Positions 1 to 16,208 of a DNA stretch of 64,000 nucleotides are shown piece after piece (position 1 is the stretch's first letter; each line of letters starts with the position of its first letter). The stretch is from Gracilariopsis chorda. Lineage: Eukaryota; Rhodophyta; Florideophyceae; Gracilariales; Gracilariaceae. The position numbers and the translations under genes are program-made. The notes below the pieces were generated by a model that saw only the letters and a program-made list of their open reading frames with translations, was not told the origin of the DNA and ran no database searches. The stretch is from NCBI GenBank assembly GCA_003194525.1, contig NBIV01000019.1, positions 62,001-126,000 on the forward strand. Reading direction: 5' to 3'.

Positions 1-450
1 GATTTTATCTACTTCAACCCCTGGAAGTTCCGGGAAATTTCCTCCGAGGAGGCGCGCGAGCTTCGCGATGCGCCCCGGCATGTGCCGGAAGTCCACCCGG
101 TGGGGTATGTCGATTCTGACGACTACTACCGCGCATACGGCGGGGATGACCCAATGGTCGACAACGAACCGGAAGAACCCGGGGAGATGGACGTAGAGGA
201 AACCGGCCCTAGTGCGGAAGCTTTCCCAGAGGGGGTATCTCCGGCCGAGCGGGCTGCTGACCCTTCGGCGGCAAGTGCCGGACCTTCTCTCCCCAGCGGG
301 GTGACGGCGAATGAAAACGAGATCATCGCACGTTTTCTCCGGGGTGCCGGTCTTAGCGCTGCCGAGGTATCGGGGGATGTCACCACCATGGCGGACGCGT
401 TGGCCTACCGCCTCGCTGGTGGTTACGCCCCGGGCAACGGCAAAGAGTGA
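1..450 (+). CDS. C-terminal part of an antisense ORF carried by element Gy1 (unknown protein)
   Basis: The frame is open from the first base, so the start lies outside; 149 residues are visible before the stop at 448-450. The visible part begins with FNPWKFREI and continues into an acidic, Ala/Ser/Pro/Glu-rich tail ending YAPGNGKE. I recognise no family. It converges on the Gy1 pol gene: the two stops are about 190 bp apart, and a poly(A) signal follows at 538-543. GC-rich composition and dense short hairpins (for example 41-52 and 75-88) match Gy1, so I infer it is part of Gy1, lying between pol and the unseen 3' LTR and read on the other strand. Alternatives are a host gene or another element beside a truncated Gy1. 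Confidence 0.55.
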   Translation, partial: DFIYFNPWKFREISSEEARELRDAPRHVPEVHPVGYVDSDDYYRAYGGDDPMVDNEPEEPGEMDVEETGPSAEAFPEGVSPAERAADPSAASAGPSLPSGVTANENEIIARFLRGAGLSAAEVSGDVTTMADALAYRLAGGYAPGNGKE

Positions 451-517
451 GCCCCTTTTGTCCAGTTTCCTGGTGTTCTTTCCCTGGCTATGCCAGTTAG
501 TGTAGTGTAGTATTGTG

Positions 518-543
518 GGGAGCTAGCTGCTCCCTTGAATAAA
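518..543 (+). terminator. Hairpin plus AATAAA poly(A) signal behind the antisense ORF
   Basis: A perfect 6-bp stem (GGGAGC, 5-nt loop, GCTCCC; 518-534) is followed three bases later by AATAAA at 538-543, about 90 bp after the stop of the plus-strand ORF. This is the expected place for a 3' end signal, supporting the view that the ORF is transcribed on the plus strand. A second 6-bp stem (CCCGTC/GACGGG) lies at 580-594, between the signal and the pol stop. Confidence 0.45.
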
Positions 544-641
544 CTTTCCCGTCTAGAACGGTGCTTCTCGGTTGAGTTCCCCGTCTTCGACGGGCCTTGC
601 CTTGTTATCCTTTCCTATCGCTCTCCGCTCGCGCGGCAACG

Positions 642-3600
642 TTACCCAACTTGGGCATTAACCAGCGTGGCTGGGGCTGCAGTTCCCGTTTGACGGTGGT
701 ATCGCAGGATCTGCGACCGTGGGAGGTGTTCAATTGGCTCCCACGTATCCCCACTGGGGTCGTACCCGTACCAGCGCACGCGGTATTGTAGATTACCATC
801 CTGGTCCCAGGTGTGTCCGACAAGTCGGTCTACTACGAACTCTCGTTCGTAGACCTGCCGGCCGTGCCGGGTAGTGGTTGTACTCCCTTGCGGGGGCTCC
901 CCGCTGTGCTGTATAATGTCCCTTAGCAGGGTGTTCGGCGATACCTCCGGCGTTGCCGTGCTCTGTGATAGCGGCCGCTGCTCACGCGGGAAGATATCTC
1001 TCAAGAGGGTGTGTGGTGCCACGGTTTTCACCGGCAAGTCATTCCCCATTGGGGAAGGTTCATTTCTGCTTTCGCGGTATTGCGGGCGAACCGCCAGTCG
1101 GCGGGGGACTTGGGCTCCGCCTACGTGGTTGAGCTCACGAACCGCGAGTTTGCGGGAAGATGACCGCTCCTGCGGGATCGGCATTTCCACAATCCCCTGG
1201 GGGGTCCCGTGCGACACGGTGATTGGGTGGCAAACCGCCTCCCTGCCAGGCGCACGAGCGCTCTGCACCATACGTTCCGGCGATGCCGTGGTGTCCCCAG
1301 CTACTGACGGGTTGCCTGGGGCTAACTCCGGTACACCGGTATTTTGGTCAAAATTCCCCTTTGGGGGGTGCCGGGCAGGTGCCGATGACACCCTTTTCAG
1401 GGGCTTGGCCGCTAAGTGCGGTGCACCGTCTCCACGCGGAGGAGCAGCGTCCGGTTTCGAGCGTGCGATGGCGTGCGCTTTTTCCGACTTCCTCGGTTCT
1501 TCCCCGCAGCGTTGCGGGAGGTGGCGCAAATTATTCCCCGGAACGGGGGCTTCAATTTCGTTGACGACGGGAGGCGTTTCCGGCGCTTGCGGGCCAGGGC
1601 CTGAAGCTTCGGCTGCGGCTTGGCTGCCTTTTTCCCCAGGTGTAGTGTGGGGATTTTCCAGCGGCGCTGGTGTGTCTGGGCGCCTCTTCTCCGCAAGGCA
1701 CGGGTCTGATCGACCTGATTGAACCGCTTCCGCGGGGACTTCCGCCAACGGCGGCTTCGAGGCATCGCCCTGCTCAGGGGATTGAGGGCGATCGTCGCCG
1801 TACTCCCGTAACGGGGATCCTTCCCTGACAGGGGTGTACGGTAGCTGCGTTTCAATTTCCCGTTGCGACGGCGATATCGTTCCTCGAAAACGAGTGTTCT
1901 CCTCCCCCTTCTTAGACGGAGCGGCGGGATAAGGGATAACATTCCCCGCCTGGCGGGTGTAAATTCGCGCTGATAGGCCCGAATTACCCGGCTGAGCCGG
2001 TGAGTCCGACAGGGTCGGTAGGTCTGAGAGTCCCCGGCTGGGGTGTGGTAGTACCGTAGGCCTAGTACACCCGGATGGTTCCGGTGTTGCAGAGTCCGTA
2101 GAAACGGGGTTGCCTGGATCCAGGACTACCTCTGACGAGGGAGGAGGGGCAAGGACAACACGATCACGGGAAATCCGTTCGTGCGTGTCGCCCATCTCTA
2201 CCACGACAGTGTCGGTGTTTACAGAGATGACCTTGAATGGTCCATCCGCCACAGGCGAGAGTTTATGGCGCTTCTCCCGTTCCGGGTTGTAGTACTCCTT
2301 CCTGATGAAGACGTAGTTATTCCCCCGAATCGGGGACGGTTTCCCTCGCAAGCGAGCATCAAAATCCCGCTTGTAAGCGGCTTGGGCCCGTGCCATATAC
2401 TTCCGCGCAGCGGGGACCAGCTTGGAAAGCCATTGCTTCCATTGCTGCCGGTAGATACCCACTGATGGGAAATTGTCCAAGGTAGCTTGGGGTTCCAGCG
2501 CCACAGGCGGGGGTGTTCTAGATAGAACCAACTCCAATGGCGAAACTCCGGTAGTCCGGTGTACCTGCGTATTGTACGCGTAGGTTACCGCATCAGCGTA
2601 CATGTCCCAGTTCTTTGGGTGGTCTGCGACGTAGGAACGTAACGCCGCGAGTAACGTCCGGTTAAACCGTTCAACTTGCCCATTACACTGGGGGTGGTAG
2701 GTAGTCGTGAACAAGTTCTTGACATCCAGGATGCGACAAACATCCTGGAAGAACTTGCTCACGAACTGTTTCCCGTTATCGGAGAGCACCTCCACAGGGG
2801 GACCGTAGACGAAAATCCAGTCCGTCACCAGAGCCTGGGCCACCGTGAGAGCGGTTATCCTCCGAAGAGGGACAGTCCGTACCAGCTTAGAAAAGCGGTC
2901 GGTATTGACAAGTAGAAACTTGTTTCCACGTTTCGTGGTGAGTAATGGTCCGAGAATATCGATCGCGATAAACTCGAGCGCCGCCCTTTCGGGGAATAGT
3001 TTCATCTTCTTTGCATTTTTGCGGAGTTTGACGTGATTCTTCGCGCATTCGCTACAAAACCGCACGGTTGCGTAGCAATCCACTGCCATGGCGGGCCAAT
3101 AGAAATCCCTTCGCAGGGTTAGGTAGAGTTTCCTCCCACCTGGGTGACCTCCGATGGGGGCGTAGTGGGATAGATGTAACACCCGCGATTGCAGGGAATG
3201 TGGTACCACAATCTGTGGGCAGGCTTCGACCTTCCTTAGGAGGTAGCCTTTGTCGTTTACCCCGAAAGGGAGATCTTCACCACCGTTGATACGGGCACGA
3301 ATCCTCGTACAGAATGGGTCGCCGAATTGTTCTCGGATCATTTCTTCCGGTGATACCGGTACAAAGTTTCCCGGTAACGGGTTCTCAGATTCATCTCGCG
3401 ATGCGAGTAGTTCGTCAAAATCAGCATCCTCGTCCCAGTTTTCTGGCCCAGCCCCGACGGTACATTCCGGATCATCCGGGTCTATGGCCATGAAGCATGG
3501 GACTTCATCATCCTCCGTTGGGAGTGCCTCCCCACTTGTGGGTAACCGCGACAAAGCGTCGGCCTGGGTGTTCTGCGCGCCTTTTTTATAAATGACTTGA

Positions 3601-5828
3601 AAGTCATATTCCGCGAGGCGGAGTCTCCAGCGCATGAGGCGTCCCGACGGGTCGGAGATATTCATCAACCACCTCAATGAGGAATGATCCGTGTACACGG
3701 TGAAGTGAATTCCCATAAGGTAGGGCCGCAGAGTGGTCATCGCCCATACGACGGCGAGGCACTCTTTCTCCGATACGGAGTAGTGCCGCTCATGAACATT
3801 GAGCGAACGTGACCAATAACCAATTGGGTGTCGTTCCCCCTCGGGGGTGGTTTGAAAAAGAACGCACCCAACTTGGTAGTCGCTCGAGTCCGTATCTACG
3901 GAGTATGGCAACCCAAGTTTTGGGAGATGTAGGATTGGTGCTGATGTGACAGCCTCCTTCAAGGAGTTAAAAGCTTCCAATTGCTCGCGCGTAAATGTTC
4001 CCATTTTTGGGGGGTTCCCCTTTCGCAACAACGCGTTCAGGGGCGCCGCGGTATCCGAAAAGTTCGGGATAAACCGTCGATAGACGTTGACCAGCCCCAA
4101 AAAGGAGCACAGTTCCGTTTGAGTACGGGGTTCTTTCGCCTCAACGAGGGATTTGACTTGAGCTTTCTCGATCGCTAACCGTCCAGGACGGATAATGTGA
4201 CCCAGATACTTCACAGTATCTGTGAAAAACTCGCATTTCCTCAACTTGAGGGTAATTCCCGCATCGCGGAGTACGGTCAGCACGTCTCGGACGTGAGTGA
4301 GATGGTCGTCCAACGAGTTGGAGAAGATGATAATATCATCAAGGTAGACCAGACAACTCCGCCACTTAAAGCGGTTGAGTAGAATATCTACTGCACGCTG
4401 AAAGGTGGCGGGGGCGTTGGTTAACCCAAATGGCATCCGCTTGAAGCGGTACGTTCCTGCGTGGCAGGTGAATGCGGTTTTGTCGCGATCCTCCTGTCTG
4501 ACAGGTACTTGCCAGTATCCCCAATTGGCATCAAGGGCCGTGAACACGGTGGCGTCTCCAAGGGAGTCAATACACTCGTCCATACGAGGGATAGGGTACG
4601 TGTCCCTAACAGTCACGGCATTGAGCCGGCGGTAGTGGACACAGAACCTCCAGGTTCCGTCGGCCTTTAAAGCCAGTACAACTGGGGATGCCCAGGGTGA
4701 TTGAGCGGGCTCAATCACACCTGCACGGAGCATCTTGTCCACCTGGGACTGCTCCTCTTCCCGAGCTTTCGGACCTGCCCTGTAAGGGGGTTGTGCAACC
4801 GGTCGCGCACCGGGGATTAAATCGATCCGGTGTTCCGTTGCGTTAATCTCGCCAAGCGAGCCATCCCACATTGTGGTGAATTCCCGTACCATTGTACGGA
4901 GTTTTTCGCGGTGCGACTCTGGCACGTGGCTGAAGTCTAGGGCTTCAAGGGCTTTTTCCGGATCAATCCGGTCGTTGCTCGATGGAGCATTGTCCTGTGG
5001 AACAGGTGTGGCTCGCAATTCCGAGTTACTCGTTATGTTCGACGCTGAAGTAGCTCTTTCCTCCCCCTCCTTAGACTTGACGTCTTCGGACGGCGGGGCG
5101 AACTCCTCAGAAGAGGTGGTAACTCCGAGTACATCGGCGGCTGTCATCTTTGTTGGCAGCATTCCCATAGGATGGGGGGTTACACTCCCAATTACTTGGT
5201 GTTTTACCAGATACTGGGGGTGTTTGCCAAGGTTGGCAACCAATATCCGGAAAGGAACATCCGGGGAAATGGAGACAATTCCATTAGCCAGCGCTAGCTG
5301 GGATTTCTCGTACAACGAGGCGAGGGGTTGTATAACCCGAAGACCGTGTTGACGGGAATTTACCTGCACCCAGACTTGGGACTCAGGCGGTATAGAAACC
5401 GAGGCAGCGACGTGGAGCTTGGTGCACTCGCGGGACGCGGGCGGTGGTTCCTGCGCAGCAGGGAGCGGAACTTGTTTCCGAGAGCACCGCTTTAGCAGGC
5501 GGCGAACAATCGGAACCGACGGCCCGTCGCCAAGTTCTACACGCCTGAGGCGGGGCCTGATTGCGTCGACAAATCTGTCGCAGTAATCACATCCCAGTAT
5601 CACTGGTGCTGGCAATGAACGGCAAACGATGAAGTCCAACTTCACCACAGAGGTACCAAGTCTCACGAAGAGGTCCACTGTGCCCACCGTTTGTAACGGA
5701 TTGTTGTTCGCATCCCAAATGTCGGGGACCGCGTCAGTGGTGTCTTTCCTCGAGATGACTTTCACCGGGGAGCGAGGCGAGGACGCCTCGGGCGCCAACA
5801 GCCTCGTTCTTGAGGACGCCTCTCCCAA
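642..5828 (-). CDS. pol: Gy1 Pol polyprotein: RT, RNase H, integrase, long linker, chromodomain
   Basis: 1728 codons open on the minus strand with no ATG at the beginning, so it is probably made by frameshift from gag (see 5822-5853). Approximate residues: protease C-terminal part with ILGCD at 77-81, but the D-S/T-G active site expected just before VISRKD is absent (SPR there); RT with GVIEP near 372 and catalytic YLDD near 494; RNase H with VDTDSS near 643; integrase zinc-binding H/H/C/C near 883-920; integrase D, D, E near 957, 1014 and 1050 (AIDILGP, SDNGKQF, GQVERFNR); an SH3-like tail ending VVLAPPP near 1225; a Pro/Ser/Glu-rich linker of about 425 residues; a chromodomain near 1655-1710 (YRVRWYGYD, DTWEP). 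Integrase inserts cDNA and the chromodomain is known in chromoviruses to steer insertion to chromatin. The linker is unusually long for the family. Confidence 0.92.
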   Translation of the reverse strand: MGEASSRTRLLAPEASSPRSPVKVISRKDTTDAVPDIWDANNNPLQTVGTVDLFVRLGTSVVKLDFIVCRSLPAPVILGCDYCDRFVDAIRPRLRRVELGDGPSVPIVRRLLKRCSRKQVPLPAAQEPPPASRECTKLHVAASVSIPPESQVWVQVNSRQHGLRVIQPLASLYEKSQLALANGIVSISPDVPFRILVANLGKHPQYLVKHQVIGSVTPHPMGMLPTKMTAADVLGVTTSSEEFAPPSEDVKSKEGEERATSASNITSNSELRATPVPQDNAPSSNDRIDPEKALEALDFSHVPESHREKLRTMVREFTTMWDGSLGEINATEHRIDLIPGARPVAQPPYRAGPKAREEEQSQVDKMLRAGVIEPAQSPWASPVVLALKADGTWRFCVHYRRLNAVTVRDTYPIPRMDECIDSLGDATVFTALDANWGYWQVPVRQEDRDKTAFTCHAGTYRFKRMPFGLTNAPATFQRAVDILLNRFKWRSCLVYLDDIIIFSNSLDDHLTHVRDVLTVLRDAGITLKLRKCEFFTDTVKYLGHIIRPGRLAIEKAQVKSLVEAKEPRTQTELCSFLGLVNVYRRFIPNFSDTAAPLNALLRKGNPPKMGTFTREQLEAFNSLKEAVTSAPILHLPKLGLPYSVDTDSSDYQVGCVLFQTTPEGERHPIGYWSRSLNVHERHYSVSEKECLAVVWAMTTLRPYLMGIHFTVYTDHSSLRWLMNISDPSGRLMRWRLRLAEYDFQVIYKKGAQNTQADALSRLPTSGEALPTEDDEVPCFMAIDPDDPECTVGAGPENWDEDADFDELLASRDESENPLPGNFVPVSPEEMIREQFGDPFCTRIRARINGGEDLPFGVNDKGYLLRKVEACPQIVVPHSLQSRVLHLSHYAPIGGHPGGRKLYLTLRRDFYWPAMAVDCYATVRFCSECAKNHVKLRKNAKKMKLFPERAALEFIAIDILGPLLTTKRGNKFLLVNTDRFSKLVRTVPLRRITALTVAQALVTDWIFVYGPPVEVLSDNGKQFVSKFFQDVCRILDVKNLFTTTYHPQCNGQVERFNRTLLAALRSYVADHPKNWDMYADAVTYAYNTQVHRTTGVSPLELVLSRTPPPVALEPQATLDNFPSVGIYRQQWKQWLSKLVPAARKYMARAQAAYKRDFDARLRGKPSPIRGNNYVFIRKEYYNPEREKRHKLSPVADGPFKVISVNTDTVVVEMGDTHERISRDRVVLAPPPSSEVVLDPGNPVSTDSATPEPSGCTRPTVLPHPSRGLSDLPTLSDSPAQPGNSGLSARIYTRQAGNVIPYPAAPSKKGEENTRFRGTISPSQREIETQLPYTPVREGSPLREYGDDRPQSPEQGDASKPPLAEVPAEAVQSGRSDPCLAEKRRPDTPAPLENPHTTPGEKGSQAAAEASGPGPQAPETPPVVNEIEAPVPGNNLRHLPQRCGEEPRKSEKAHAIARSKPDAAPPRGDGAPHLAAKPLKRVSSAPARHPPKGNFDQNTGVPELAPGNPSVAGDTTASPERMVQSARAPGREAVCHPITVSHGTPQGIVEMPIPQERSSSRKLAVRELNHVGGAQVPRRLAVRPQYRESRNEPSPMGNDLPVKTVAPHTLLRDIFPREQRPLSQSTATPEVSPNTLLRDIIQHSGEPPQGSTTTTRHGRQVYEREFVVDRLVGHTWDQDGNLQYRVRWYGYDPSGDTWEPIEHLPRSQILRYHRQTGTAAPATLVNAQVG

Positions 5829-5853
5829 AGGGGAGACTCCCTCAGTTATTTTT
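5822..5853 (-). promoter_or_regulatory. Probable -1 frameshift site between gag and pol
   Basis: On the minus strand the gag frame ends GCG GAA AAA TAA; pol is open in the -1 frame and continues straight through (ATA ACT GAG GGA). The five-A run at 5853-5849 abuts the stop, and a stem-loop (CTCCC/GGGAG with a 4-nt loop, 5822-5835) lies about ten bases downstream. An A-run followed by a stem is the usual layout of a -1 site, but the heptamer is not a perfect X-XXY-YYZ. Shown: frame relation and hairpin. Inferred: use as a frameshift signal. Confidence 0.5.
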
Positions 5854-8020
5854 CCGCCTTCGGCGGTGGGTTGGTTTCCTCGACAACGAGTGCTTCATCC
5901 CGTTGACGGGGGTTTCTATCCGCATAAGCGGGGGTTGCAACGGATGGTTGCGTGATCTCCCGAATCGGGGTGTATGAAGCTTGCCGCGCACGCGGGGTCT
6001 GTGGTAGGGCATGGGAAAAGTCCGTTTTCGCACGGACGTAGGACACCGTCTGGACGGAACGTTTCTCCTCTGGAGTGAGGGCCTCATAATTTGCCACCAC
6101 CTTGGTCATATCCTTCAGTGAACAAATACACTGAGGTGAGGTATGGCCATGGGCATAGCACAGGTGGCAAATGAGAGCCAATACCGTGACACGCGGATTA
6201 TTTTTCCGAGTATCGGAGAAGCGAACCGCAGGGCGGGTGTCAGTCCACCCAGGCCGTTGATAACGGGATTGACCGTTTGAAAACGGGAGTCGTTGGGGTT
6301 GAACCCGACTGTTACCACCGTACAAAACGGGTTCTTCCGTTCCCGTATCATGGGTCATCTCCGTCGTTGACGGTAAATCACTGGTGGGTATCGACACACC
6401 ATCCTCCTGCACTAAATGCACGGTATCAAATACCTGTCCAGGGTTCCCATCCGCAGTGAGCGGGAGTGAGGAAGCTTCGATTTCTAGCAACAACGCCTTG
6501 GCGGATTTAGACCGATTGTTCGGAGTTCTTGCACGAAGTGCATCCCCTTCCGCTCGGGCGTGTTGGACCAGCTCGAGATAGGTTATCCTCCGCTTGTCCT
6601 CCCGATAACGGGTAACTAAACTGCGGATTGCCGGGTCAAGACCATCGATGAACATGGTACTGCGCTCCCTAGCGGGGTATACGTTACCACATCTGTGGAA
6701 AGCCTTGTTAAGGCGCACCGAGTAATCGGTCTCGGTCTCTCCAGCACGCTGGCGTTTATCTCGCAAGGCGAGGATAGCCTGCTGAATAGCGGTGTTCGTG
6801 GCGTAGGAGCGCAGACGATAATGCACAGCCTCCGGCCAGCAAGTAACTCCTCCCTTGGAGGCACGAGAATATCCTCTGACAGAGTTGTATTGGTCCTCCG
6901 CCACTCCCCGTAAGAAATACGGTAAAGCAAAATAGGCTTGTCCCTCATTCATACCGAGGATATCGGCCTCCGCTACAAAGCGGGATAGGAAATCCAGTAC
7001 TAGGACTGGGTCCTCTCCAGTAAAATACTGGTTGCGGAGCGAGAGCTGCATTCGCTTAATGCATTCTCGCACCTTTCCCGTACCACGGGGCGTACGTCCA
7101 AGTGACAAGTCTTCGAGCCGGTAGTACCGGTATGATAAAAGCTTCCAGTAATCCGGGTTTGTCGGTTTCAATTTCCGGAGACCGGGGTGTCTTCTCCCCT
7201 TCTGGCGGGTTCGGACCACACCTTCAGTGGCCGATGACCGCTTCGAGCGGGAGGAGTCGCCTTGCATCTCGTCCTCCGAGTAAGAGTCCGAGGAGCTCAA
7301 GCTAACCGAATGGTTTCGGGATGAGTCCAACGATGTCTAAGAATCGGACTCCGAATACTTTCGGTGGTGTTTCCGTCGATGACGGCGTTTCTTCTTCCCA
7401 GCAAGCTCGTCGTTGTGCGATGCCTCGTTTACCGGATCATCCGGGGATGGTTTGTCCATGAGGACGAACTGCTCCAGCGTCTCCAGGCGGGCACGAATCC
7501 GATCAAATCGGGCTTCAACTCCTTCGATGAAGGTGGCGGGTTGTCCCAAACTCTCCAACACGGAGTTGACGTCAGACCGTAAAATACGGAGTTCCTGGGC
7601 GACCTCCTTTACGGGGGTTGCCAAGAACACCTCTTGGAGGGATTTTAGTTCCCCTACAAGGGTGTCATGGGCGGTCCACAGAGCGCGGACCTGGGATTCC
7701 AGGGAAGTCCCCTGGGGGTTGTTATCGACCGTTCCACGGGGGCTTGAAGCGGCGACAGCGGGAGCAGGCCGGGGTGCCTGGGGCACTGCGGCAACAGCCG
7801 GAGTCGATGCTGCATTCCCCTGCGGGGGTGATAACGAGGGCAAAAGGAGGTTCCGGGGTTACCGGTCGGGGGTATCATTCCGCGATGAAGCGGCGCCAGT
7901 ACGGCTGGAACTTGTCCGTATAGGGGTACGGGGTACGAACCGAACTTCAGAAGTGTCCGCGTTGTCGCGGGAGCGACTACGCGTAACCACTGGCTCCGCA
8001 TCGGAGGGATTTCTCGACAT
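5846..8020 (-). CDS. gag: Gy1 Gag, interrupted by two in-frame stops
   Basis: The minus-strand frame starts at an ATG (8020-8018, MSRNPSDAEPVV) and runs 725 codons to 5846, but contains TAA at 7861-7859 and TAG at 7339-7337. The N-terminal third is Ser/Arg/Pro-rich with a basic stretch (KKKRRHRRKHHRK) just before the TAG. The middle part looks like a gypsy capsid: QRAGETETDYSVRLNKAFHRCG followed by MFIDGLDP is matched by degenerate copies in elements A and J. Near the C terminus is a canonical zinc knuckle, CHLCYAHGHTSPQC (CX2CX4HX4C). Gag packages the element RNA in the particle. The stops may be mutations, or the TAG could be read through; the TAA so close to the start favours mutation in this copy. 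Confidence 0.85.
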
Positions 8021-8105
8021 GAGAAAATACAGTTACGACGGGAAACGATCACGGAACTTCCGGTGAATAAAAACAAACCTCGTAAGAGGGAAAACAAAAA
8101 CAGAT

Positions 8106-8122
8106 TCTAGGTCGGGAGACCA
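8106..8122 (-). promoter_or_regulatory. Gy1 primer binding site
   Basis: Read on the minus strand, five bases (CAAAG) after the LTR terminal CA comes TGGTCTCCCGACCTAGA. It starts TGG, as a site pairing with a tRNA 3' CCA should, and lies at the normal distance. The primer tRNA would end ...GGGAGACCA; I cannot name it. Element B has almost the same site with the same 5-nt spacer. Confidence 0.7.
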
Positions 8123-8127
8123 CTTTG

Positions 8128-8952
8128 TGGTGCAATGCCCCAAAGTGGAAAAACACCGAAAGACGTTCGGGATCTTCCTCTCACGAGGTGAACCCAGATG
8201 GGTAGAGCCCTCCCAGAGGTGTCACGGCAAAGCAGGTTTGTAAGACCAGGGACACCTGTCGCGACTCGCGCAGGGAGGTGAAGGCGAAGAATCGGTATCC
8301 GCGTGAGCGGGGTGTGATGCTCGGTAGAGGTATGTTTCCACGTAAGTGGGGCTGTGTGAGCCGATGCGCACACGAGGGCCGTGGATAGCGGGAGGTGCTA
8401 CCCTAAAAAAAGGGGAAAAACGAAGGGCAAAGAGGAGGAAGAGAGGACGAAGTGAGTTGCGAGAGCGACAGGGACGAACGGCGATGCCGGTAACAATATC
8501 CCTATACAGGGCGAAACACCAATGCAATTGGAACAATTATACTCCCAGTGATGGGTCCCTTTACATGTGCGAGGGGGTTAGATGTCCCGTGGTTCACAGC
8601 GTTTCCCTCCAAGGAGAAGTAGAGCACGCGCGCAAGCGGCAACAACTAGAGCCAATTCCCCAGGTTGGGGTCCCTTGTTGGGGAAGGTTTACTGGTGCGA
8701 CGGCAGTGCGCCGTCGCACTAAGTACTAGCTTCCCAGAAATGGGTGTGAAAATAATAAATAATATTAACTAAAATACTCCACATTTCGTGGCAACATCCA
8801 CTACTGTGGCCAACCGCCAATTGACCCAAAACTGTGTCCCACGTGTCCATACCCACCATTGTGGGGCGTAGTTCATATACACACTACACAACCGATAATA
8901 TCGGGAAAACGATCAAGTACCAGGAATCCCTCCCTGAGGGCGTTGCACTTCA
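8128..8952 (-). repeat. Gy1 5' LTR
   Basis: About 825 bp, repeated with roughly 90% identity at 18162-18991. On the minus strand it reads TGAAGTGCAA...TTGCACCA, so it has TG/CA ends and short inverted ends. Internal sequence with a primer site follows at 8127 downward, making it the 5' LTR of the minus-strand element. Some 20 short perfect stem-loops are visible, the longest a 10-bp stem at 8695-8719. Stems include CCAC/GTGG at 8338-8349, CCAAT/ATTGG at 8519-8531, CCCA/TGGG at 8544-8555 and CCCAC/GTGGG at 8852-8865. ORFs in it (for example plus strand 8346-8729) look incidental. Confidence 0.9.
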
Positions 8953-8955
8953 CAA

Positions 8956-10327
8956 AGGTCTAAGATCGCTTGTGACCACGATTTTTTTCAGAAGACACAG
9001 CAATGTGGTTGTTTGAATTGTAGTTGAAGAAGCAGACCACATCCCCGCTCCCCTCTATGATGCAAATTAATACCATCTCGGTTTATGAGGAGCAACTGGA
9101 TATATTTCGCGCTTACCCGCATATCGGCGCCTGCCTTACCGAAAGGTATGCGACTGATGAGGTTATCCAGGACGCCTACGCCGAGCTTCTCGGCTAACCT
9201 CCGAGTTCACGACAAACCCAATTGGAATTCGCAAAATCTTTCTTTGCGGTGGCATTCCGTTGTGATAGAATGTGTTTAGTTTCACTCGTTTCAATTTTTT
9301 GGCCACTAGTATCAACAAAGTAATTAGGTTCCAGTTGATAAATCAACTCGTGACAAACAGAACGGTGGATAATAACGCGCTGGTGCGGTATGCACAAGCT
9401 CCTCGAGACCCTCATCGAGTCGTTCGAAGACAGCCCAGCACGTTTATCAAGCCTGGTAAGGGTAAACCGAAACGGCGTATTCTGGATGTGGCTTATTCCG
9501 CACCCTCCGAGGAAAGGACGTATGATGTCACATCGGTTGGATGTACGATCCATTTGCTTATCACCGGAACCGTCTTGGCATCAGTTTCTCTATTCTTGAC
9601 CTGTAAATCTACAATGTTTGCCCTAACTCCAAGGGCATCAAATCCAGCCACACAGGTGTCCGTCTCCGACGAACAGGTACTCACAACACAACCCTTTGGT
9701 GTGACAGCACCACTGATTCAGCATTCTTTGTAACATACGACACGCTTCTAGCCCATGGATCGAACGCCAATGCTTGCGCAGCAGAGCTTGGATAGCATTG
9801 AGATATTCAACTACTGGGAATCTTTTTTGTTGGTTTTATCTATGCCCTCATCACTTTGTTTCCATAGGTTATAACCGAATGTTACCCCTGAGGTTTGGGC
9901 CGCACTTCTCAAAATGCGTTAGCCAATCCATCAGGAGTATTTCACCAGGCGGGAGAAAACCGACAGATTTAGAACAAGCAGTCCCCTATAAACCAACAGG
10001 TCATTCTGGTCACCGGTACTGATTTTGCAACCCTATCTGGTGTTGCACCATCCTAGACGGAAAATCCTCAAAGTTTGAGCCATAGTTCACTTCTGAATGG
10101 TTGCAATTGGAGAGCCAGACGGCAATGCCGGTTTTTCGTATGGATGGTACTACTCTTGTTACCGGGCAGGAAGCCCTAGAAGACCGATTCGTACCTCTCT
10201 CCTTTCAGTAGCACGATACATACAACTTAAACTTAACGGTTGGGTTTTCTGTTACCCATTTGGGTCTGCGCATTGTTACTTTCGATGTGAGAGTGGGACC
10301 GAATCTGATTATTGCGCAATCATTATC
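8956..10327 (+). pseudogene. gag: Element A gag and start of protease, degenerate
   Basis: No continuous frame, but shifting between plus-strand frames gives TDEVIQDAYAELLG, then a stretch with RCD, then YAQAPRDPHRVVRRQ and KPGKGKPKRRILDVAYSAP. The same order occurs on the minus strand in element J (TDEVIQEAYTELLG, RCGE, RYVEALRDPHRV, KPGNCKPKRRILGVDYSSP), and Gy1 Gag has the counterpart IQQAI...QRAGET...RCG...MFIDGLDP. The last 140 bases match the protease N-terminal region of J (NLNITVGFSVNH in J). Thus it is a capsid-to-protease segment of a Gy1-related gypsy element, destroyed by stops and indels. The longest plus-strand ORF here (9272-9733) covers only part of it. Confidence 0.7.
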
Positions 10328-11766
10328 TGTAGCACAAGGGTGAGAAAGGCCTTTGGCCCTACCATTCTTGCCTGCAGTAGTGACGTTTCCATCCTGCCTG
10401 CAGGAAAGAGTGATAGCGCCGCCCTACCACACTTTCTGCAGTTGTGATGTCTGCATCTTGCCTGCAGGAAAGAGTGATAGGGCCGGAGCTTGAGAGATCA
10501 CAAACCTGAGAATGAAACGTTTTGGTTGTCCAAAACGTTTGATTATCATTGGTTCAAAGAGCTGGCGTACCAAAAGGCTCAAAAAATGAGCGTGAAGCAC
10601 GATTTTGGGTGCTGGCGCAGTTTGCGCCAAAAAAACGAAATCGTGCATTTTACTTATTTTTTAAGGGGTGCGAAGGGCGTTGTCGCACAAATCCTTAGTT
10701 AGGTTAGACACTAGGCCTTGCCCTTATATGGAGGCCGGATGCCTGGCCACTGCAGTGCAGCCGCACTGTTAGTCTGGAGAGCTGTGCCCTTAATTTTCTA
10801 CTTTTTTGTCGCACTGCCACCCTGCATTAGGCGCTTATCGGGCGTGGCGTGTCCTCATGTGGCATCAGCCTTTGGGCCGACTGTAGGGCGCGGGCGCCTG
10901 TACAATTGTACAATTATGTACTTCACTGATTAGAGTACACTAACTTTAGGACAGATTTCGTAGCAAACGACCATATTAGTGTGCCCCGCTCAGGTTTCAA
11001 CTTCTGAGTGAAGTCCGCCACACTTTTGGTGGCTTCAAAACTCAAGTTTTAGTATAGCAACACAACTCCTCCCGGATGTACTTCCCTGTCGACGCGAACA
11101 ATACAGGCTGTTGCCCGCGCACCTATAGTCGAAGTCCACTTTGTGTTACACACTCTCCGGGTATTACCCGTTCAGTCTTCGCCAGTACCGGCCTTCCGCC
11201 GCTGATACTTCCTGCTGCGCTGTCGCTTAGCGCGTTGGGCTACTGGCAACCCTGCAGTCTGAGTAGACAGTCGACCTATTGTATCAACCCCGATACTTGT
11301 GTGCCAACGCGAGCCCCGGTTAGTAAGCATCGCTCACTTTGAGTTCCAGACGGCGCAGTCGTAGCAGCCGTACAGTTGTGGGCTCTGGCGCAATTCCAAA
11401 GATACCATACTCTCCTGTTACCACCCGTAGGGTGTTCGGTCGGAGCGTCGTACACGTTGCAAGCATAGGCCGGCGTCTGGGCGCTGGTCCAATCTTGAGG
11501 CTGTGCCCACGTTCTCCTTCACTACGCGACGTTCCCGGTCGACCAATAAATCTTGTGTCAAGTCTGACACGTTGTTTGTACTCCTAATAGACGCTTGTGT
11601 TTTTGGGAGGTGTGCGCATCGCCCAGTAGTCGTGCTTTTGTTAGAAGCATAGAACCGAGCTCGGGATTAGAACTATTCTCGGCCTGCTAGGCTGCTTCTT
11701 CCAGGCTCTTCCTGCAGTTAGCTCCAATGATAGCGGGTGGTCTCCCGAGTAGCGCATTCCACTACA
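10328..11766 (+). repeat. Element B left (5') LTR
   Basis: 1439 bp, TGTAGC...CACTACA, followed by a primer site. Matching blocks in the right LTR include CCGACTGTAGG/ACCGACTGCAG, ACTAACTTTAGGACAG, GTTGGGCTACTGGCAA, CCCCGATACTTG and ACTATTCTCGGCCTGCTAGG. The first 350 bp hold a 22-bp direct repeat (starting TGCCTGCAGG at 10395 and 10459) and strong hairpins: an 11-bp stem at 10515-10540, and a 7-bp stem (613-629) nested in a 9-bp stem at 10597-10646. Confidence 0.85.
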
Positions 11767-11771
11767 TGTTT

Positions 11772-11788
11772 TGGTTCCCTGACCTAAA
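11772..11788 (+). promoter_or_regulatory. Element B primer binding site
   Basis: TGGTTCCCTGACCTAAA, five bases after the LTR end. It differs from the Gy1 site at only four positions and has the same spacer length, so both elements probably use the same tRNA. Confidence 0.65.
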
Positions 11789-12591
11789 ATCCGGAGACCG
11801 TTGGTCTCTTCTTCTAACACCTTATTTCCCTGGCGGTATCCGTCTTTTTGTAATGTTTGTCCGAGATTTCGACCCGATGTGGTAGATCTTTACATGGTTC
11901 AAAGTCGAACCATGATTTGCACGTGTCGGCCAGTGGCCGTAAGTCGAGTTCTGATAAGAATCTTTCTTAAGGCTTTCAGTAGAAGCAAGCCGCCTAAGAT
12001 CTTCCGATTTGCCCAATTTGCCCATGGCCAAGCACGTAGAACTTCGCATTCGCAGAATGTAGAGGCTCTGCTTCGTCATCGGCGAAAGCCGTAGTGGAAA
12101 AACCTTCTTCCTTAGCCTCAGTTGAGTCGAGCGCTCCGCTAAACGCACCAAGCCCATTGCTCCGAGCTGCCTTGTCTAATGTGGAGTTCCCTCCAGTCCC
12201 TCTTTTCACGCTGATCAACCCATCCCAGCAGTCGAGAACTACTGATAGCCAACAGCAGCCTGTGAGAAAGCCAGTGACAGCCGGCGTAGCTACAGCTGTA
12301 CTAATGGCGGTTTCCCCACAAGTAAATCAGCGTTCATCTTGAAGTCGCCCATCGGGTGCACGTCAGGCACAAGTTAATCAACGTTTTGTCACAGAAGTCG
12401 CTAACCGCGTGCCCTCACGTCTTACCTAACAGCTTAACGAGGCAGAGCGCAGTTTTGAAGTTTCTCTCGAATATCACAGAACACACGTAGATTGCAATGC
12501 AACCACGAATCCAGTCGTCCTTTGCAAGTGAGATCCATCGCCAGGTGGCGCACGCGACACGGCAAAGTGGGAACATCTCTTTCATCGGTAA
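11789..12591 (+). other. Element B leader, no gene recognised
   Basis: Sequence between the primer site and the gag-like ORF. Several short frames exist on both strands but none resembles a known protein. It is most simply the untranslated leader plus decayed gag start of B. Confidence 0.4.
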
Positions 12592-12927
12592 TTGCACAAT
12601 GTGATAGCAAAAATGGTCAAGCACGACCAGAGACTGGACATTCTTGAGCTCGAAAATCGTGCGCTAAGAAGCCAGGTGGCTTTCCTAATGAAGCATGACA
12701 TTTCCCTGCACGACTATGATATACAGGTACGGAACGTCTGGGCTTTGAAATCCAAAAGGGAGCGCGGGCACTCCAAGAAGAACCATGATTCTAAGTCAGA
12801 TTCTTCTTCCCCACACGATGGATCACACTCGGCTTCTGAGTCCGATCCGGACTTGTGCAAGCACAATCAATCTGAGGTTAACCCGGCTAAAATCCGTTTT
12901 GAGAATGTCTTGTCGTGCAAAACATAA
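12592..12927 (+). pseudogene. gag: Element B gag N-terminal remnant
   Basis: A 111-codon plus-strand ORF with a possible coiled-coil segment (DQRLDILELENRALRSQVAF) followed by a Lys/Ser/Asp/His-rich stretch (KSKRERGHSKKNHDSKSD). The layout, a short coiled coil and then a charged Ser/Asp-rich stretch, parallels the N-terminal part of Gy1 Gag (ARLETLEQF then KKKRRHRRKHH). No capsid or zinc knuckle follows; the sequence goes almost directly to integrase, so most of gag and pol appears deleted. Whether this is really gag is inferred from position and composition. Confidence 0.45.
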
Positions 12928-13009
12928 AGAGTGCATAACCGTAATACGAGCGAGGGCCCGAAAGTTAAACAACCTGTCGCTTCGATGGTCAAGAGGTTCA
13001 TTAGCACCA

Positions 13010-13960
13010 TTGCTAACTGTCAAGTCGACGGAACAAAGTCCCAAGAGCCTTCAGCACCCATTGAGTGTTTGTTTACGGGCCTGCCGTTACTATCCTATTG
13101 GAAAACGGATCTAACTTCGCTTGGAAGTTGTTACAGAGTTTGTGCCGAACCCTTGGCATAAAGAACTTCTTTTCATTGACGTATCATCTACAGGCCAATG
13201 GCTAAGTTTAGATGTTCAACAGAAACATTTTGTCCCCCTTGGAGCACTTTGCTGCTGTGCATCAGCACAAATGGGACCTCTAAGAGCGATGCGCTGACTT
13301 TTGGGTAGAATACCCCCCAGGTGCATGATAGCATCGGGCATTCTCTTTTCGAGTTAGTACTCGCCCAGTTTCTCGAACCGTTGGGTTTTCAACGCCTTAA
13401 GTCCCTGAAGAGACGACAACTTCGAGAAGTCAAGGTTGAGCTTCTGGCACACCTGCGCCAACTCATTTCGCGATCGACAGGAATCTTGACCAAAGGGCAG
13501 CAGCGCTACAAGCAAGAGCACGACGAACGCGTCGTAGAGCAAAAAAAACCGAACCTGGCACGCATTTGTACCTTCGCCGACACTTGAATTCCATGCAAGC
13601 AGAGGCAGGAGATGAGAAGATGTCACGAAAGCTCCGCCGGAAGGTGAAAGGACCTTTTGAAGTTCTCAACACTGACACCGGCAGCTGCACGGTTTTCATT
13701 TAGAATAACGGGCTCGAAGAGCGCCATAACCTTGACCACGTGGTCATTGGGGCTTCGAAGCCCCGTGCAGAAAGTCCGAAGAAGTCATAGATCAGATCGT
13801 GGGCATACCCAAGGAGCAGCAGAGGACTACCGGTATCAGGAACGCTTGTTGGGGGTTCAATTGAGAGGTAGATACCTTCCACGATGCGAAGGATATCCTG
13901 TGGAACTTGATGGCTCCCTAATGCGGAAGGCAGAAGATCCTCGTACATGATAAGGACAAA
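13010..13960 (+). pseudogene. pol: Element B integrase C-terminal half and chromodomain, degenerate
   Basis: Around 13165 the plus strand reads FSLTYHLQANG with stops, the counterpart of Gy1 FTTTYHPQCNGQVERFNR that carries the catalytic Glu. About 30 codons on comes YPPQVHDSIGHSLFELVL, matching Gy1 YNTQVHRTTGVSPLELVL. The ORF 13321-13587 continues into a basic helical part. At 13620-13740 are KVKGPFEVLNTDTGSC and LEERHNLDHVV, the SH3-like domain (Gy1: DGPFKVISVNTD). At 13785-13910 VIDQIVGI, CWGFN and DTFHDAKDI look like a decayed chromodomain (Gy1: VVDRLVGH, WYGYD, DTWEP). Several stops and a large upstream deletion make it a pseudogene. Confidence 0.7.
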
Positions 13961-15580
13961 ATCCATCGTGAAACGGAACTGGCTTGACGCGGCGCGCGTA
14001 TGGGGTGAAAACTCACCCAGAGCCGCAATTGATTGCCATCGTTGAGAGCCCAGTATTTTCGTTGAACATCTGCGGCAAATAGAAAACCTCCACGCGAATG
14101 ACTCCATCTAGAATCTGCACCAGTTTGTGGCCTTGCTGAGCTCGAATGCATAGCGCGCGTTGCGCTCGAAATTTCTATAAGACATAATCATCCCTGGTCG
14201 CAACTGCAACACCACTTGGGCATTTTACGCCCTCACCAACGCATGTTATCCATTGTATACTTCATAAATGGCGGTGACGGCATATGGATGTCACCTGCAC
14301 AGGTGTGCGTCTTCGGAACTTGGCGGGTTTACCGCTTTCGAACGTCCAGGAGGCAGTTTTGCCTCAACAATAACGCACAGAACTCGTGCCTGAAGATGCA
14401 GTATCACCGCTCTGTCCGAAGCACGAGAGCGGGTCAACTTTAGAGGGGGTTGTGAAACCTCATCGTACCGAAGAATTGTCAATGGGAACGGAAAACTTGT
14501 GGCACGCGACACTGAGCAGGCTCATGCACGAGCCCCTGCCCCTGCTGAAGATAACCGCCCCAAATCTCCTTAGATACATCTGCGAATGTAATCAGGTCGG
14601 ATTAGAGGCGGATCGCCTGGGCAAGGTGGCCGGTGGCCACAGAAAACTTGTCCACGTGCACAACCCTCGCATGGATGCCATGGTTTGCTCTGGAACCACC
14701 CAAAAAGAGAGCCCACCTCGATTCCCTGCCACCCAGGAGTGGACGCCGCCCACCTTGGAACCTCCCGGCACCCAATAAGAGCAATGCTCTTGCGTAGACT
14801 TGGAGGCATTGACCCCTTCATAATTGAATCCGTCGTGGCATCACGGCTCCGTGCGCGGGAGACTATTAGCCTTACTTTTGTGAGAGGCCACTACCACTTG
14901 TATGTGATATATCAGTCGTATTTGAGTCAATATTCTTTGTCACCTTCACGTTCCACGGAAATCTAGCGCATGCACTAAGACATAAGAACCCAATGTCTAA
15001 TATTGATGCGCGCTCTCCGCAAGAAGACTGGCTATTAGCCCCGAAACAAAGATATATTCCGTAGTCCGATAAGTGGCAACCCACACATACAAGCGCAAGC
15101 CCTAGGGGAGGACGCTCACGTCCGTCAATTAATGGCACGCGCGCCACGCTAACTCGAGTATCACTCGACTGTAAAACCAGTTTGGTTTGGAGAGCTCACT
15201 GATGCTACTGTCTCCCACAAGAGGGTAGCAATGGGATTCATCCTGGGCGCACGAAACGCGTGTAACAGCGAACCCTCGCTTGGAAATTCTTTTTGGGCAT
15301 GGTGGATTTGTACAGAGGCGTTGACGCCCCATCCCGAACAAAAGACTACCCGGTTTTCTGGAAACCCGTCTGAGACTCCCCAGCCTTCCGTTTAAGTCGC
15401 GCAGCCACTCGTGACCAAAGCTAAGCTTCGCTGAAGGGGAATTCAGCCCCCATAAAGGTCTGAAAACCCTCTGTAACCCTGCGCGTGCTGCGATTTTTTT
15501 TTTGCCTCGCCCGAATTTTGACAAATTTGTAAGGGACTTTGTCTCTTTCTGGACCTGTAGTGCACATCGCACATACTACT
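13961..15580. other. Unassigned internal part of element B
   Basis: Only short ORFs occur (for example plus 14386-14778 and minus 15129-15572), none with a recognisable motif. Given its place after the chromodomain of B this should be B's 3' internal region. I see no rRNA, tRNA or clear repeat in it. Confidence 0.4.
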
Positions 15581-15589
15581 GCTAGTCTA

Positions 15590-16208
15590 AGAGCAAGTCT
15601 ACCAGTGCTCTATGTTATAGACACTTGTTTTGAAAATAAAATTCAATTTAGCATCCCAAATAATGAGCGAGTCTACCAGTCGAGTGCGATATGCTTGACT
15701 ACGAGTACGAGCCATTTGCAATGCAAGAAACGCTAGCGGGGGGGGGGGGGGGGGGGGGGGGGGTCAGCATTCAACCAAGTGCCCTGTATGAGGTACAAAG
15801 AATGACAACCAACATGTTCGAACGACGCCGTTCGATAGCCTGGCTTCTGCTCGATCGCTCACGCCACTGAAGTTACAAAATTTCAAGTTGTGAAGAGAGA
15901 GAGGTTGTAGCAGAAAATGCTTTTGGCTGGCGCGAAAATTTGTTTCCTGCTCATTTTACGCGGCCAAAATCTGTTTGATATAGAATCAGTAATCTGATAG
16001 GTGAATAAAGTGCTCAAAATCTATTAAAATTGCAAATCACGGTGTCAAATTTCATTTCTATATTTTCCTCGTACTGAAATTTAAAAAAATCACAAGACGC
16101 ATATGGCAATGAGACATGGCAATAAAATGCTGGTAGGGATGTTAAAATCGCCTAGCGCGCAAGATGTTAAGATTTTTTGGCGATATAGCTCTCTGCTAGA
16201 CTTGCTCT
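15590..16208. mobile_element. Probable MITE (non-autonomous DNA transposon)
   Basis: The left end reads AGAGCAAGTCTACCAG and the reverse complement of the right end reads AGAGCAAGTCTAGCAG; similarity continues for about 24 bases with three or four mismatches. TCTAA (or TA) is present at both borders, so the exact ends are ambiguous. The inside is AT-rich without a gene and has a near-copy of the terminal motif at 15667 (CGAGTCTACCAGTCGAG). It contains the poly-G run. Size, inverted ends and lack of coding capacity fit a MITE; the superfamily is not identifiable. Confidence 0.6.
15738..15763 (+). repeat. 26-base poly-G run
   Basis: An uninterrupted run of 26 G after CGCTAGC. It is the only long homopolymer in the window and lies inside the MITE. 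It may be real or an assembly/sequencing artefact. Confidence 0.9.

Follow-up and report, generated by a model that had tools for sequence, protein, structure and literature searches.

Short perfect hairpins of a set size are abundant in one clade of Ty3/Gypsy LTR retrotransposons

Short perfect hairpins occur in large excess along Gy1, an LTR retrotransposon of the Ty3/Gypsy type that occupies positions 1..8952, on the reverse strand, of the 64,000-nucleotide stretch of DNA that was analyzed (the window). With a stem of at least 5 bp and a loop of 2-5 nt we count 154 hairpins, compared to 33.5 +/- 5.8 after dinucleotide shuffling; 0 of 100 shuffles reached the observed count. The excess is independent of the protein code, is limited among the loci tested to one clade of at least four families, and concerns a unit of set size with a strict Watson-Crick rule and a strand-asymmetric flank. 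Our preferred reading, to which we give a probability of roughly 40%, is that the hairpins are weakly selected, interchangeable candidate sites at which a protein, most likely Gag, would dock on the genomic RNA.

Organization of the Gy1 Element

Based on the order of its domains, its chromodomain and its two LTRs, Gy1 is assigned to the chromodomain-bearing Ty3/Gypsy LTR retrotransposons. The 5' LTR (8147..8952, reverse strand) contains 12 hairpins (stem at least 5, loop 1-5; 3.1 when shuffled) and is 94.4% identical over 810 columns to the 3' LTR, which lies to the left of the window (C19:59803-60607). The leader between LTR and gag (7859..8146, reverse strand) is the densest part of the element (7 hairpins versus 1.2; 24 per kb). 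It is followed by the gag region (5846..7858, reverse strand), which consists of two open stretches (7337-7858 and 5846-7336) and has 42 hairpins between 5895 and 7858, compared to 8.9 in shuffles. Gag has a single zinc knuckle, CX2CX4HX4C (6128..6169, reverse strand), identified by pattern match, which is also found in families A, B and C (one locus read for each, and a second B copy). The pol ORF (642..5894, reverse strand; 1750 aa; 107 hairpins versus 24.0) encodes RT, RNase H and integrase, in that order and all in one pol, with Pfam matches for RVT_1 (residues 410-568), RT_RNaseH (662-763), the integrase zinc domain Integrase_H2C2 (897-954) and the integrase core rve (978-1068), and a C-terminal chromodomain (PF00385, E 9.4e-11, residues 1686-1733 of 1750). 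In combining a Gypsy element with a chromodomain Gy1 resembles, by description, the oomycete Ty3/Gypsy element Chronos, whose chromodomain was captured (PMC5348765), although the host of Gy1 is probably a red alga; neither "hairpin" nor "palindrom" occurs in the accessible part of the Chronos text (PMC5348765).

Next to Gy1 lies an older, decayed Gypsy relative (10000..18150) lacking any ORF of 200 aa. It is placed on the forward strand by an integrase fragment (13038..13745, forward strand), whose first segment shares 45.7% identity with Gy1 and as much as 49% with Gypsy proteins from elsewhere. The stretch 10000-19100, which is mostly this relative, has a hairpin excess of its own (105 versus 36.9), and a further LTR of the Gy1 family is present at 18158..18991 (reverse strand; 90.7% identity to 8124-8952). 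Taken as a whole, the rest of the window is close to chance: the excess is small between 20 and 42 kb (113 versus 90.4, z 2.2; for loop 3 with stem 5, 24 versus 12.1), and counts are at chance between 42 and 64 kb (86 versus 86.7).

Extent of the Hairpin Excess

The original prediction, made from the sequence by eye, held that Gy1 is saturated with short stem-loops across coding, LTR and flanking sequence, and the excess proved to be stronger than it claimed. Each of the 13 hairpins listed with coordinates corresponds exactly to a perfect inverted repeat at the positions given, and three that were placed approximately were located as well: GGTTG/CAACC and CCGGT/ACCGG, said to lie just before 4820, at 4789-4800 and 4799-4813, and CCTGT/ACAGG, said to lie near 4990, at 4994-5006. 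For a dense block in pol (4440..5000, no strand assigned) it correctly saw an excess over the two or so expected at random (1.9 +/- 1.2 in shuffles), but its count of nine was too low, as the block holds 14 hairpins with a stem of at least 5 and a loop of 2-5. The spread over the element is equally borne out, with each of seven parts, among them LTR, leader, gag, pol and 3' region, showing a 2.4-5.8x excess.

The excess also survives the two controls proposed at the time, dinucleotide shuffling (see above) and codon shuffling: when both the protein and the codons of pol were kept, 104 hairpins (stem at least 5, loop 1-5) compared to 26.7 +/- 5.1, with a maximum of 40 in 200 shuffles. A codon or amino-acid effect is ruled out by this result, by hairpin centers in all three frames and by the excess in the LTRs. 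Hairpin density is 20-21 per kb in coding sequence and 12-15 per kb in the LTRs. Counted without overlap there are 270 hairpin calls versus 91 in shuffled sequence, or approximately 180 extra per 9 kb. Only short loops contribute (loop 3, 61 versus 7.4; loop 5, 14 versus 6.8); in Gy1, loops of 6-40 are close to chance and loop 0 is without excess (6 versus 8.9). A strict 21-nt period was considered and rejected, as the order of the hairpins is weak and short-range, with neighbors about 17-23 nt apart.

Distribution among Elements

All 25 Gypsy loci with an RT at least 67% alike carry the excess (2.4-5.1x). There is no clear excess in three distant Gypsy loci of the same assembly (1.0-1.3x), nor in 12 Copia loci of the same genome (pooled, 0.80x), and 12 kinase-gene loci are close to chance (pooled, 1.21x). 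Restriction of the excess to this family, which the original prediction named as support, therefore holds with respect to distant Gypsy elements, Copia and genes, but has to be widened from Gy1 alone to a clade comprising at least four families. The set first named family D (L050 and its neighbors) is a copy of family B, and was left out of all pooled counts except the first one-mismatch count.

Among the 120 matches listed, 16 have an organism or bin name, and 13 of these are red algae, namely three from Agarophyton chilense (up to 71%) and ten from Chondrus crispus (46-55%). An oomycete host, considered at first, was rejected on these grounds. One relative from another record (L119, 54%) has a weaker excess (62 versus 35.7, above all 60 shuffles) of a different shape (loop 3 with stem 5, 4 versus 5.0; loop 4 with stem 4, 20 versus 19.2), and eight of its 62 hairpins, of a single class (loop 3, stem 8), are putatively a repeat. 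As its excess differs in shape, the wider lineage can do without the set-size unit. The more distant L120 (33% alike) is inside its shuffle range (26 versus 16.9). No relatives were found among viral contigs; genome contigs yielded none by protein search and 2 by alignment search, and three weak RT matches (27-36%) came from plasmid records.

Shape of the Hairpin Unit

In four families, Gy1 included, the unit measures 12-13 nt, with either 5 pairs and a loop of 3 or 4 pairs and a loop of 4. Typical 13-nt units with 5 pairs and a loop of 3 are found at 4456..4468 (outer pairs CC/GG) and 4493..4505, and a hairpin of 10 pairs with a loop of 2 at 4697..4718 is exceptionally long (no strand assigned to any of these). 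A sixth pair is avoided, being present in 26 of the 213 hairpins with 5 pairs and loop 3 against a background of 25% (p=5e-6). The old decayed relative has longer units (6 pairs, 15-16 nt), in which the frequency of pairing is about 0.4 at pairs 5 and 6 and drops to 0.17-0.18 at pair 7.

Across 188 hairpins from four families the outer pairs are oriented, with C rather than G on the 5' arm at pair 1 (138 versus 12) and pair 2 (137 versus 16). On the sense strand, A follows the 3' arm in 82 of these hairpins, whereas T precedes the 5' arm in 33 (p=6e-6). A consensus within the loop, like the motif in MS2, was looked for in Gy1 and not found, though the bases at either end of the loop are somewhat less often G.

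Turnover of Hairpin Positions

Hairpin density is kept while positions turn over between families: 8 of 38 Gy1 hairpins are intact in family C, and 4 of 43 in family B. When 25 copies from many contigs were compared, 69 of 97 hairpin centers proved common to more than 80% of them. Singleton variants create and destroy hairpins as random mutation would (39 gains, 111 losses; ratio 0.35 versus 0.36), and gains and losses are balanced only among variants that have spread between copies (23 versus 22 for those in at least two copies; p=0.003 against singletons). The same holds for synonymous variants (10:41 in singletons versus 14:15 in shared variants, p=0.011). Shared variants show a stronger excess of gains (p=0.003) than deficit of losses (p=0.027), and for synonymous variants alone the deficit is not significant (p=0.21). 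The balance owes much to family B (6:0), with Gy1 alone at 11:16 versus 10:46 for its own singletons.

Pooled counts of stem versus non-stem variants do not differ between singletons (141:401) and shared variants (35:121; one-sided p=0.21). For family B they do with a loose hairpin set (23:75 versus 0:19, p=0.02) but not with a strict set (12:86 versus 0:19, p=0.21). Third-codon change is half as frequent in stems as outside when Gy1 is compared to four of its own copies (0.027 versus 0.055). Between Gy1 and family C it is 0.52 in both, and slower mutation of paired bases was rejected as a cause for this reason.

Template-switch (quasi-palindrome) mutation turns near-perfect hairpins perfect. 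In a related scenario, a reverse transcriptase that pauses at small fold-backs would copy arm onto arm, so that 12-13 nt hairpins are written or perfected in each cycle and their density reflects a mutational equilibrium devoid of function. Such copying would account for the strict Watson-Crick rule and the absence of G.U pairs; it fits a trait confined to one clade, as a property of one RT, and present in LTR and coding sequence alike, and it fits random singletons next to balanced shared variants in which the excess of gains outweighs the deficit of losses. However, if hairpins were only being created, the lower frequency of losses among shared variants would not be expected (for synonymous ones, see the p=0.21 above), and many compensatory double changes should be left behind. 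Double changes affect stem pairs (0.05-0.18) no more often than control pairs (0.07-0.13) in eight comparisons, although pairing is kept more often where they occur (0.43-0.78 versus 0.32-0.41), and 24 polymorphic hairpins (18 in Gy1, 6 in family B) differ mostly by single substitutions, whereas template switching would be expected to alter several bases of one arm. Coding sequence is denser in hairpins than the LTRs even though most coding changes alter the protein, and no obvious reason emerges why C-G pairs at the foot of the stem should be oriented. We therefore consider a copying process unlikely, while taking it seriously. The particular form put forward in the original prediction, template switching that perfects near-palindromes, is weakened by double changes being no more frequent than in controls, by the predominance of single substitutions and by Copia and distant Gypsy elements being unaffected.

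Energy and Folding

When hairpins were matched for predicted RNA energy, those with Watson-Crick pairs and loops of 3-5 are enriched 3.77x in the four families pooled, whereas hairpins with one G.U pair are not enriched (1.13x, z 1.3) and those with loops of 6-8 are raised 1.42x. Since G.U hairpins of equal energy are not enriched, plain RNA stability fails as the cause. A.C mismatches, which the antisense strand would carry as G.U, are slightly commoner (1.29x, z 4.7), and loops of 6-10 are also somewhat raised in family A (20-23 versus 13-14 per locus). For one-mismatch hairpins with loop 3-4 and stem 5, interior transition-type mismatches reach 1.27x and others 1.03x in live families, and 1.61x and 1.23x in decayed copies; with stem 6 the corresponding values are 1.30x and 1.37x (live), and 2.15x and 1.57x (decayed). 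By the same energy-matched measure six ssRNA phages, MS2 included, show 2.15x for Watson-Crick hairpins, and three ssDNA phages are without excess (1.03x).

The hairpins could instead act in single-stranded cDNA, where a folded strand might be shielded from nucleases or deaminases or fit the particle better. Small DNA hairpins prefer loops of 3-5 and G.T does not count in their energetics, as in the pattern found here, and both strands of 4001-5000, the sole 1000-nt stretch folded, fold about equally as RNA (z -6.0 sense, -6.7 antisense, relative to 20 shuffles). This reading is improbable, given that the flanks are strand-asymmetric, that stability predicts neither the set stem length nor the avoidance of a sixth pair, that the ssDNA phages lack the excess, and that Copia passes through cDNA as well, yet does not have the trait.

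General ordered RNA structure, serving compaction or concealment from small RNAs or RNA sensors, is given a similarly low standing. Genome-scale ordered RNA structure (GORS) is known from some RNA viruses as a genome-wide folding excess at synonymous sites. The folding of 4001-5000, far below its shuffles, agrees with this, and interchangeable hairpins at their weakly ordered spacing would shield most short target sites. In contrast to GORS, the enrichment in the Gy1 clade is not driven by stability: G.U and larger loops gain little, stems are capped and their base pairs oriented, and sense and antisense strands of the stretch fold equally well. The ssRNA phages, by contrast, enrich G.U (1.39x, z 4.6) and longer loops too. 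A structured genomic RNA had been among the causes first suggested; the flank asymmetry and the gain/loss test fit selection on the sense strand, but stability alone does not fit.

Chance, base composition or an assembly artefact can be dismissed, refuted by both kinds of shuffles, by the hairpin centers common to most copies on many contigs and by the other loci of this assembly (Copia, distant Gypsy and genes), which are at or near chance.

Candidate Docking Sites on the Genomic RNA

In the docking-site reading each hairpin would be only weakly favored and interchangeable with others, so that their number along the RNA is what counts. The partner would be a protein able to gauge the foot of the stem; the likeliest candidate is the Gag of the element itself, via its single zinc knuckle, and many hairpins might load Gag onto the RNA, leading to packaging and condensation in the particle. 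Unit length (12-13 versus 15-16 nt) and the sequence at the stem base have drifted between families, much as expected if a protein and its RNA co-evolve. Equally tentatively, the hairpins can be viewed as a size-coded second layer of information, of set length, free in position and loop, strictly Watson-Crick, and counted rather than placed; a partner would read stem length and base-pair geometry, and the family differences in unit length and stem-base letters would form a degenerate code that either co-evolves with Gag or is written by a clade-specific reverse transcriptase.

We counted in favor of docking sites the set length, the motif, the spread over seven parts of the element, the clade limit, the density kept despite turnover, the gain/loss test, the zinc knuckle and the smaller excess in the ssRNA phages. 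Counted against them were the strict exclusion of G.U, unexpected for an ordinary RNA hairpin site, the similar pooled stem-variant counts, the reliance of the gain/loss test on family B, the shape in L119 and the raised loops of 6-10 in family A. We know of no dispersed signals that approach some 180 extra sites per RNA. Also counted against was the lack of a loop consensus, unlike the loop motif described for MS2 in the part of the source available (PMC6281560).

The proposal is likened to the dispersed packaging signals of some RNA viruses (MS2, picornaviruses, the HBV pregenome), short stem-loops that are thought to load capsid protein and that differ from site to site while keeping a common recognition feature, as far as the accessible text describes them (PMC6281560). 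Shared with these are the many stem-loops above chance across the element and a common candidate feature (unit length, C-G orientation and the A that follows the 3' arm) that would be recognized. Unlike them, Gy1 is an LTR retrotransposon with its large surplus per 9 kb, without a loop motif and with G.U excluded. With Ty3 and other single-zinc-finger Ty3/Gypsy elements Gy1 shares a Gag with one CCHC knuckle, which in Ty3 is critical for RNA packaging (PMC4974528, available part). By that description a hairpin array is not mentioned for Ty3, and the words "hairpin" and "dispersed" are absent from the text available (PMC4974528). Among titles and abstract openings, in a coverage that mostly excludes subscription journals, no such hairpin array was described for a retrotransposon.

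How Ty3/Gypsy elements recognize their genomic RNA is poorly understood, and the RNA structure of Ty3 was called uncharacterised in a 2016 review (PMC4974528, available part). The Gy1 clade offers candidate sites by the hundred, controls without them in the same genome, family-specific unit lengths and dead copies in decay, and with sites so marked and such controls the way in which Gag recognizes its RNA becomes directly testable. The pooled bias of the four families (3.8x) exceeds that of the six ssRNA phages measured alike. If instead a copying process writes the hairpins, they would represent a mutational drive that mimics selection.

Hairpins in Gy1

The Ty3/Gypsy element Gy1 lies on the minus strand, with its 5′ LTR at 8147-8952 being 94.4% alike to the other LTR at C19:59803-60607 (C19 is the contig carrying the window). 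A single gag zinc knuckle (CX2CX4HX4C) is found at 6128-6169 (minus strand), and pol, on the same strand, encodes 1750 amino acids with reverse transcriptase (RT), RNase H, integrase and a C-terminal chromodomain. In the 91.3 Mb of genome searched, scoring of 40 places (window included) from 1423 candidates turned up at least 39 further copies, which match at 97-98% across 2 kb of pol. Red algae account for 13 of the best 16 protein matches with an organism or bin name, Agarophyton chilense (up to 71%) and Chondrus crispus (46-55%), which makes a florideophyte red alga the probable host.

Gy1 (1-8952) had been predicted to be saturated with short perfect stem-loops, and this is borne out. All 13 hairpins listed with coordinates are exact perfect inverted repeats at those positions, and the element contains 154 hairpins (stem of at least 5, loop 2-5) vs 33.5 ± 5.8 expected, a count reached by none of 100 dinucleotide-preserving shuffles. 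The dense block of pol at 4440-5000, where nine had been counted by eye, holds 14 vs 1.9 expected. The excess extends, as proposed, across coding, LTR and flanking sequence, and is present in each of seven element parts: the 5′ LTR (12 vs 3.1), leader (7 vs 1.2), gag (42 vs 8.9), pol (107 vs 24.0) and the stretch from the 3′ LTR to the window start (23 vs 6.8), with 0/100 shuffles reaching the count in each, and window 1-641 (9 vs 3.8) and the 3′ LTR (10 vs 3.4), with 1/100 in each. With protein and codons held, pol has 104 hairpins vs 26.7 ± 5.1 (maximum 40 among 200 shuffles); surviving codon shuffling, the signal is one of the order of synonymous codons.

A hairpin unit of set length

At stems of at least 5, loops of 1, 2, 3, 4 and 5 nt in Gy1 number 39, 33, 61, 27 and 14 vs 10.0, 7.3, 7.4, 6.6 and 6.8, loop 0 gives 6 vs 8.9, and counts for loops 6-40 scatter about chance. 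The loop-1 hairpins are in practice 3-nt loops whose ends are complementary by accident. Loop 3 with 5 pairs occurs 53 times vs 5.7, an enrichment of 9.3x. Given four inner pairs around a loop of 3, a fifth pair forms in 213/463 (background 25%), and given five, a sixth forms in 26/213, below background (p = 5e-6); around a loop of 4, the fifth is at background (0.20-0.30). This puts the length of the unit at 13 or 12 nt.

The motif at the stem base was read from 188 hairpins (loop 3 with 5 pairs, plus loop 1 with 6) of Gy1 and families A, B and C, Gypsy families of the same clade. On the sense strand, C-G exceeds G-C at pair 1 (138 vs 12) and pair 2 (137 vs 16), and the flanks are asymmetric, A following the 3′ arm 82 times vs T preceding the 5′ arm 33 times (p = 6e-6). 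In the 4-pair units of family B, C is at pairs 2 and 3, not 1 and 2. No loop consensus was found among the units.

Stability was compared over the four families (34,455 nt) for hairpins of predicted RNA energy -3 kcal/mol or lower, with finer energy bins also run. Energy-matched Watson-Crick hairpins with loops 3-5 reach 3.77x (827 vs 219), those with one G.U 1.13x (166 vs 147, z 1.3), those with one A.C (a G.U when the opposite strand is read) 1.29x (228 vs 177, z 4.7), and loops 6-8 1.42x (243 vs 171, z 5.1).

Distribution among Gypsy elements

The excess is common to a clade, not confined to the Gy1 family. All 25 Gypsy loci whose RT region is at least 67% identical to that of Gy1 at the amino-acid level have hairpins at 2.4-5.1x, and three distant loci (29-35% RT identity) are at 1.0, 1.0 and 1.3x. 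These 28 other loci of the genome were picked non-randomly from search matches, four of them as Gy1 copies, and the 25 cannot be counted as independent, since they belong to only four families (Gy1, A, B and C), which are 64-73% identical to one another in nucleotides. Pieces taken elsewhere in the elements reach 1.8-3.8x in A, 3.0-3.3x in B and 2.9-4.6x in C; in family A (L001-L005, L008) loops 6-10 are somewhat raised (20-23 vs 13-14). Twelve Copia loci, several near-identical judged by their counts and hence few independent cases, show no excess (163 vs 202.6), and 12 kinase-gene loci give 231 vs 190.2.

A weaker excess (62 vs 35.7) is seen in WTKN01000225.1 (L119), a contig with a 54% relative, where set-size units are absent (loop 3 with stem 5, 4 vs 5.0). 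This Gypsy pol and protein P0050 are filed under bacterial bins (Moorena, Sphaerochaetaceae; that of L119 is cyanobacterial), which is probably contamination from a eukaryotic host.

The older, decayed Gypsy relative in the window (about 10000-18150), without an ORF of 200 amino acids and with an integrase fragment at 13038-13745, has an excess of its own (105 vs 36.9 over 10000-19100), as has L121, a 71% copy within C147:53000-58900 (50 vs 23.0); 8/61 hairpins are intact between the two. Once four inner pairs are present, the fifth and sixth form at about 0.4 but the seventh at 0.17-0.18, a drop that indicates a unit of 15-16 nt (6 pairs), and no clear base motif was found in these hairpins. 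Hairpins with one mismatch (stem 5) are at 1.61x in decayed copies vs 1.27x in live families for the transition type, and 1.23x vs 1.03x for the others.

Within the decayed element, bin 16001-16500 has few hairpins (1 vs 1.8), and an insert at 15587-16210 has many further places at 78-89% identity. A Copia-type RT fragment (19486-20745; RVT_2, E 1.5e-40) lies close to an LTR at 18158-18991. The isolated bin 29001-30000, outside both Gypsy elements (9 vs 3.4 expected), may be another old relative. The window also holds an inverted repeat pair at 9139-9554 and 39804-40219 (416 nt, 78% complementary, 30 kb apart), a second at 10114-10327 and 38723-38936, and a 24-nt tandem repeat at 63154-64000, with at least 18 in-register copies, running to the window end.

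Evolution of the hairpins

Hairpin positions are mostly unshared between families, with Gy1 hairpins intact at 8/38 in C, 4/43 in B and 5/42 in A (locus L003), which is partly expected because third codon positions differ at 0.49-0.70. Double changes affect stem pairs no more often than control pairs (0.05-0.18 vs 0.07-0.13), but double-changed stem pairs are still Watson-Crick at 0.43-0.78 in eight comparisons vs 0.32-0.41 in controls.

Within-family variants were taken from copies of Gy1 (25), B (20), A (9) and C (14). Singletons comprise 39 hairpin gains, 111 losses and 392 without effect, a gain-to-loss ratio of 0.35 that equals random mutation (0.36; 6000 mutations), whereas variants in at least two copies comprise 23, 22 and 111 (p = 0.003), with gain:loss of 11:16 in Gy1, 6:0 in B, 1:0 in A and 5:6 in C. 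Over all variants, shared and singleton classes differ in gains (p = 0.003) and in losses (p = 0.027). Synonymous variants alone give 10:41 for singletons vs 14:15 for shared (p = 0.011), the difference in their losses being insignificant; the synonymous and separate tests have 18 variants fewer, those outside the reading-frame map. Pooled, singletons and shared variants fall alike inside and outside stems (p = 0.21), and in family B 0/19 shared variants are in stems (p = 0.02 for the loose hairpin set, 0.21 for the strict). The hairpins are neither made nor spared by host mutation after insertion, and are kept by something in the replicating lineage.

Among the 25 Gy1-family copies, twenty hairpin centres have at least two perfect forms, several varying in the loop only.

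Possible mechanisms

The explanation that we favor, with a probability of about 0.4, is weak selection on the number of set-size hairpins along the sense RNA, which would be read by a protein measuring the stem base, with Gag as first candidate. In a simple balance model, the 9.3x enrichment that Gy1 shows for five-pair stems around a 3-nt loop would fit a scaled selection coefficient near 2. The set length, the oriented base pairs and the A-flank suggest a protein reader. Gag may be that reader, given one zinc knuckle in each of the four families read and the single Gag knuckle of Ty3, described as critical for packaging (PMC4974528).

The main rival, a copying process that writes hairpins during reverse transcription, explains the Watson-Crick rule better than selection does and the reduced losses worse, and we regard it as rather improbable. 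Less likely still, the hairpins could act at the DNA level, in cDNA, which accounts for the Watson-Crick rule and the short loops but leaves both the strand-asymmetric flank and the capped stem unexplained. Plain RNA stability is rejected as the cause, as at like energies G.U hairpins and loops 6-8 are far less enriched than Watson-Crick hairpins.

The ssRNA phages offer a helpful benchmark for what selection for stable RNA looks like. Six of these (L110-L115), by the same measure, show Watson-Crick hairpins at 2.15x, G.U at 1.39x (z 4.6), A.C at 1.17x and loops 6-8 at 1.34x, longer loops also being in excess; three ssDNA phages have Watson-Crick loops 3-5 at 1.03x. Phage RNAs thus resemble stability selection more than the retroelements do, G.U being near chance in the four Gypsy families. 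Pooled, the perfect-hairpin excess of the six ssRNA phages peaks at loop 4 (67 vs 16.7).

In the literature searched, going by titles and the starts of abstracts, no hairpin array of this kind is described in a retrotransposon. The nearest known idea is that of dispersed packaging signals (PMC6281560, PMC8472981), from which, as outlined there, the Gypsy array, a putative case, differs in being without a loop motif, much denser and subject to a length rule. If a writing process makes the hairpins, the array would be something other than a variant of dispersed packaging signals.
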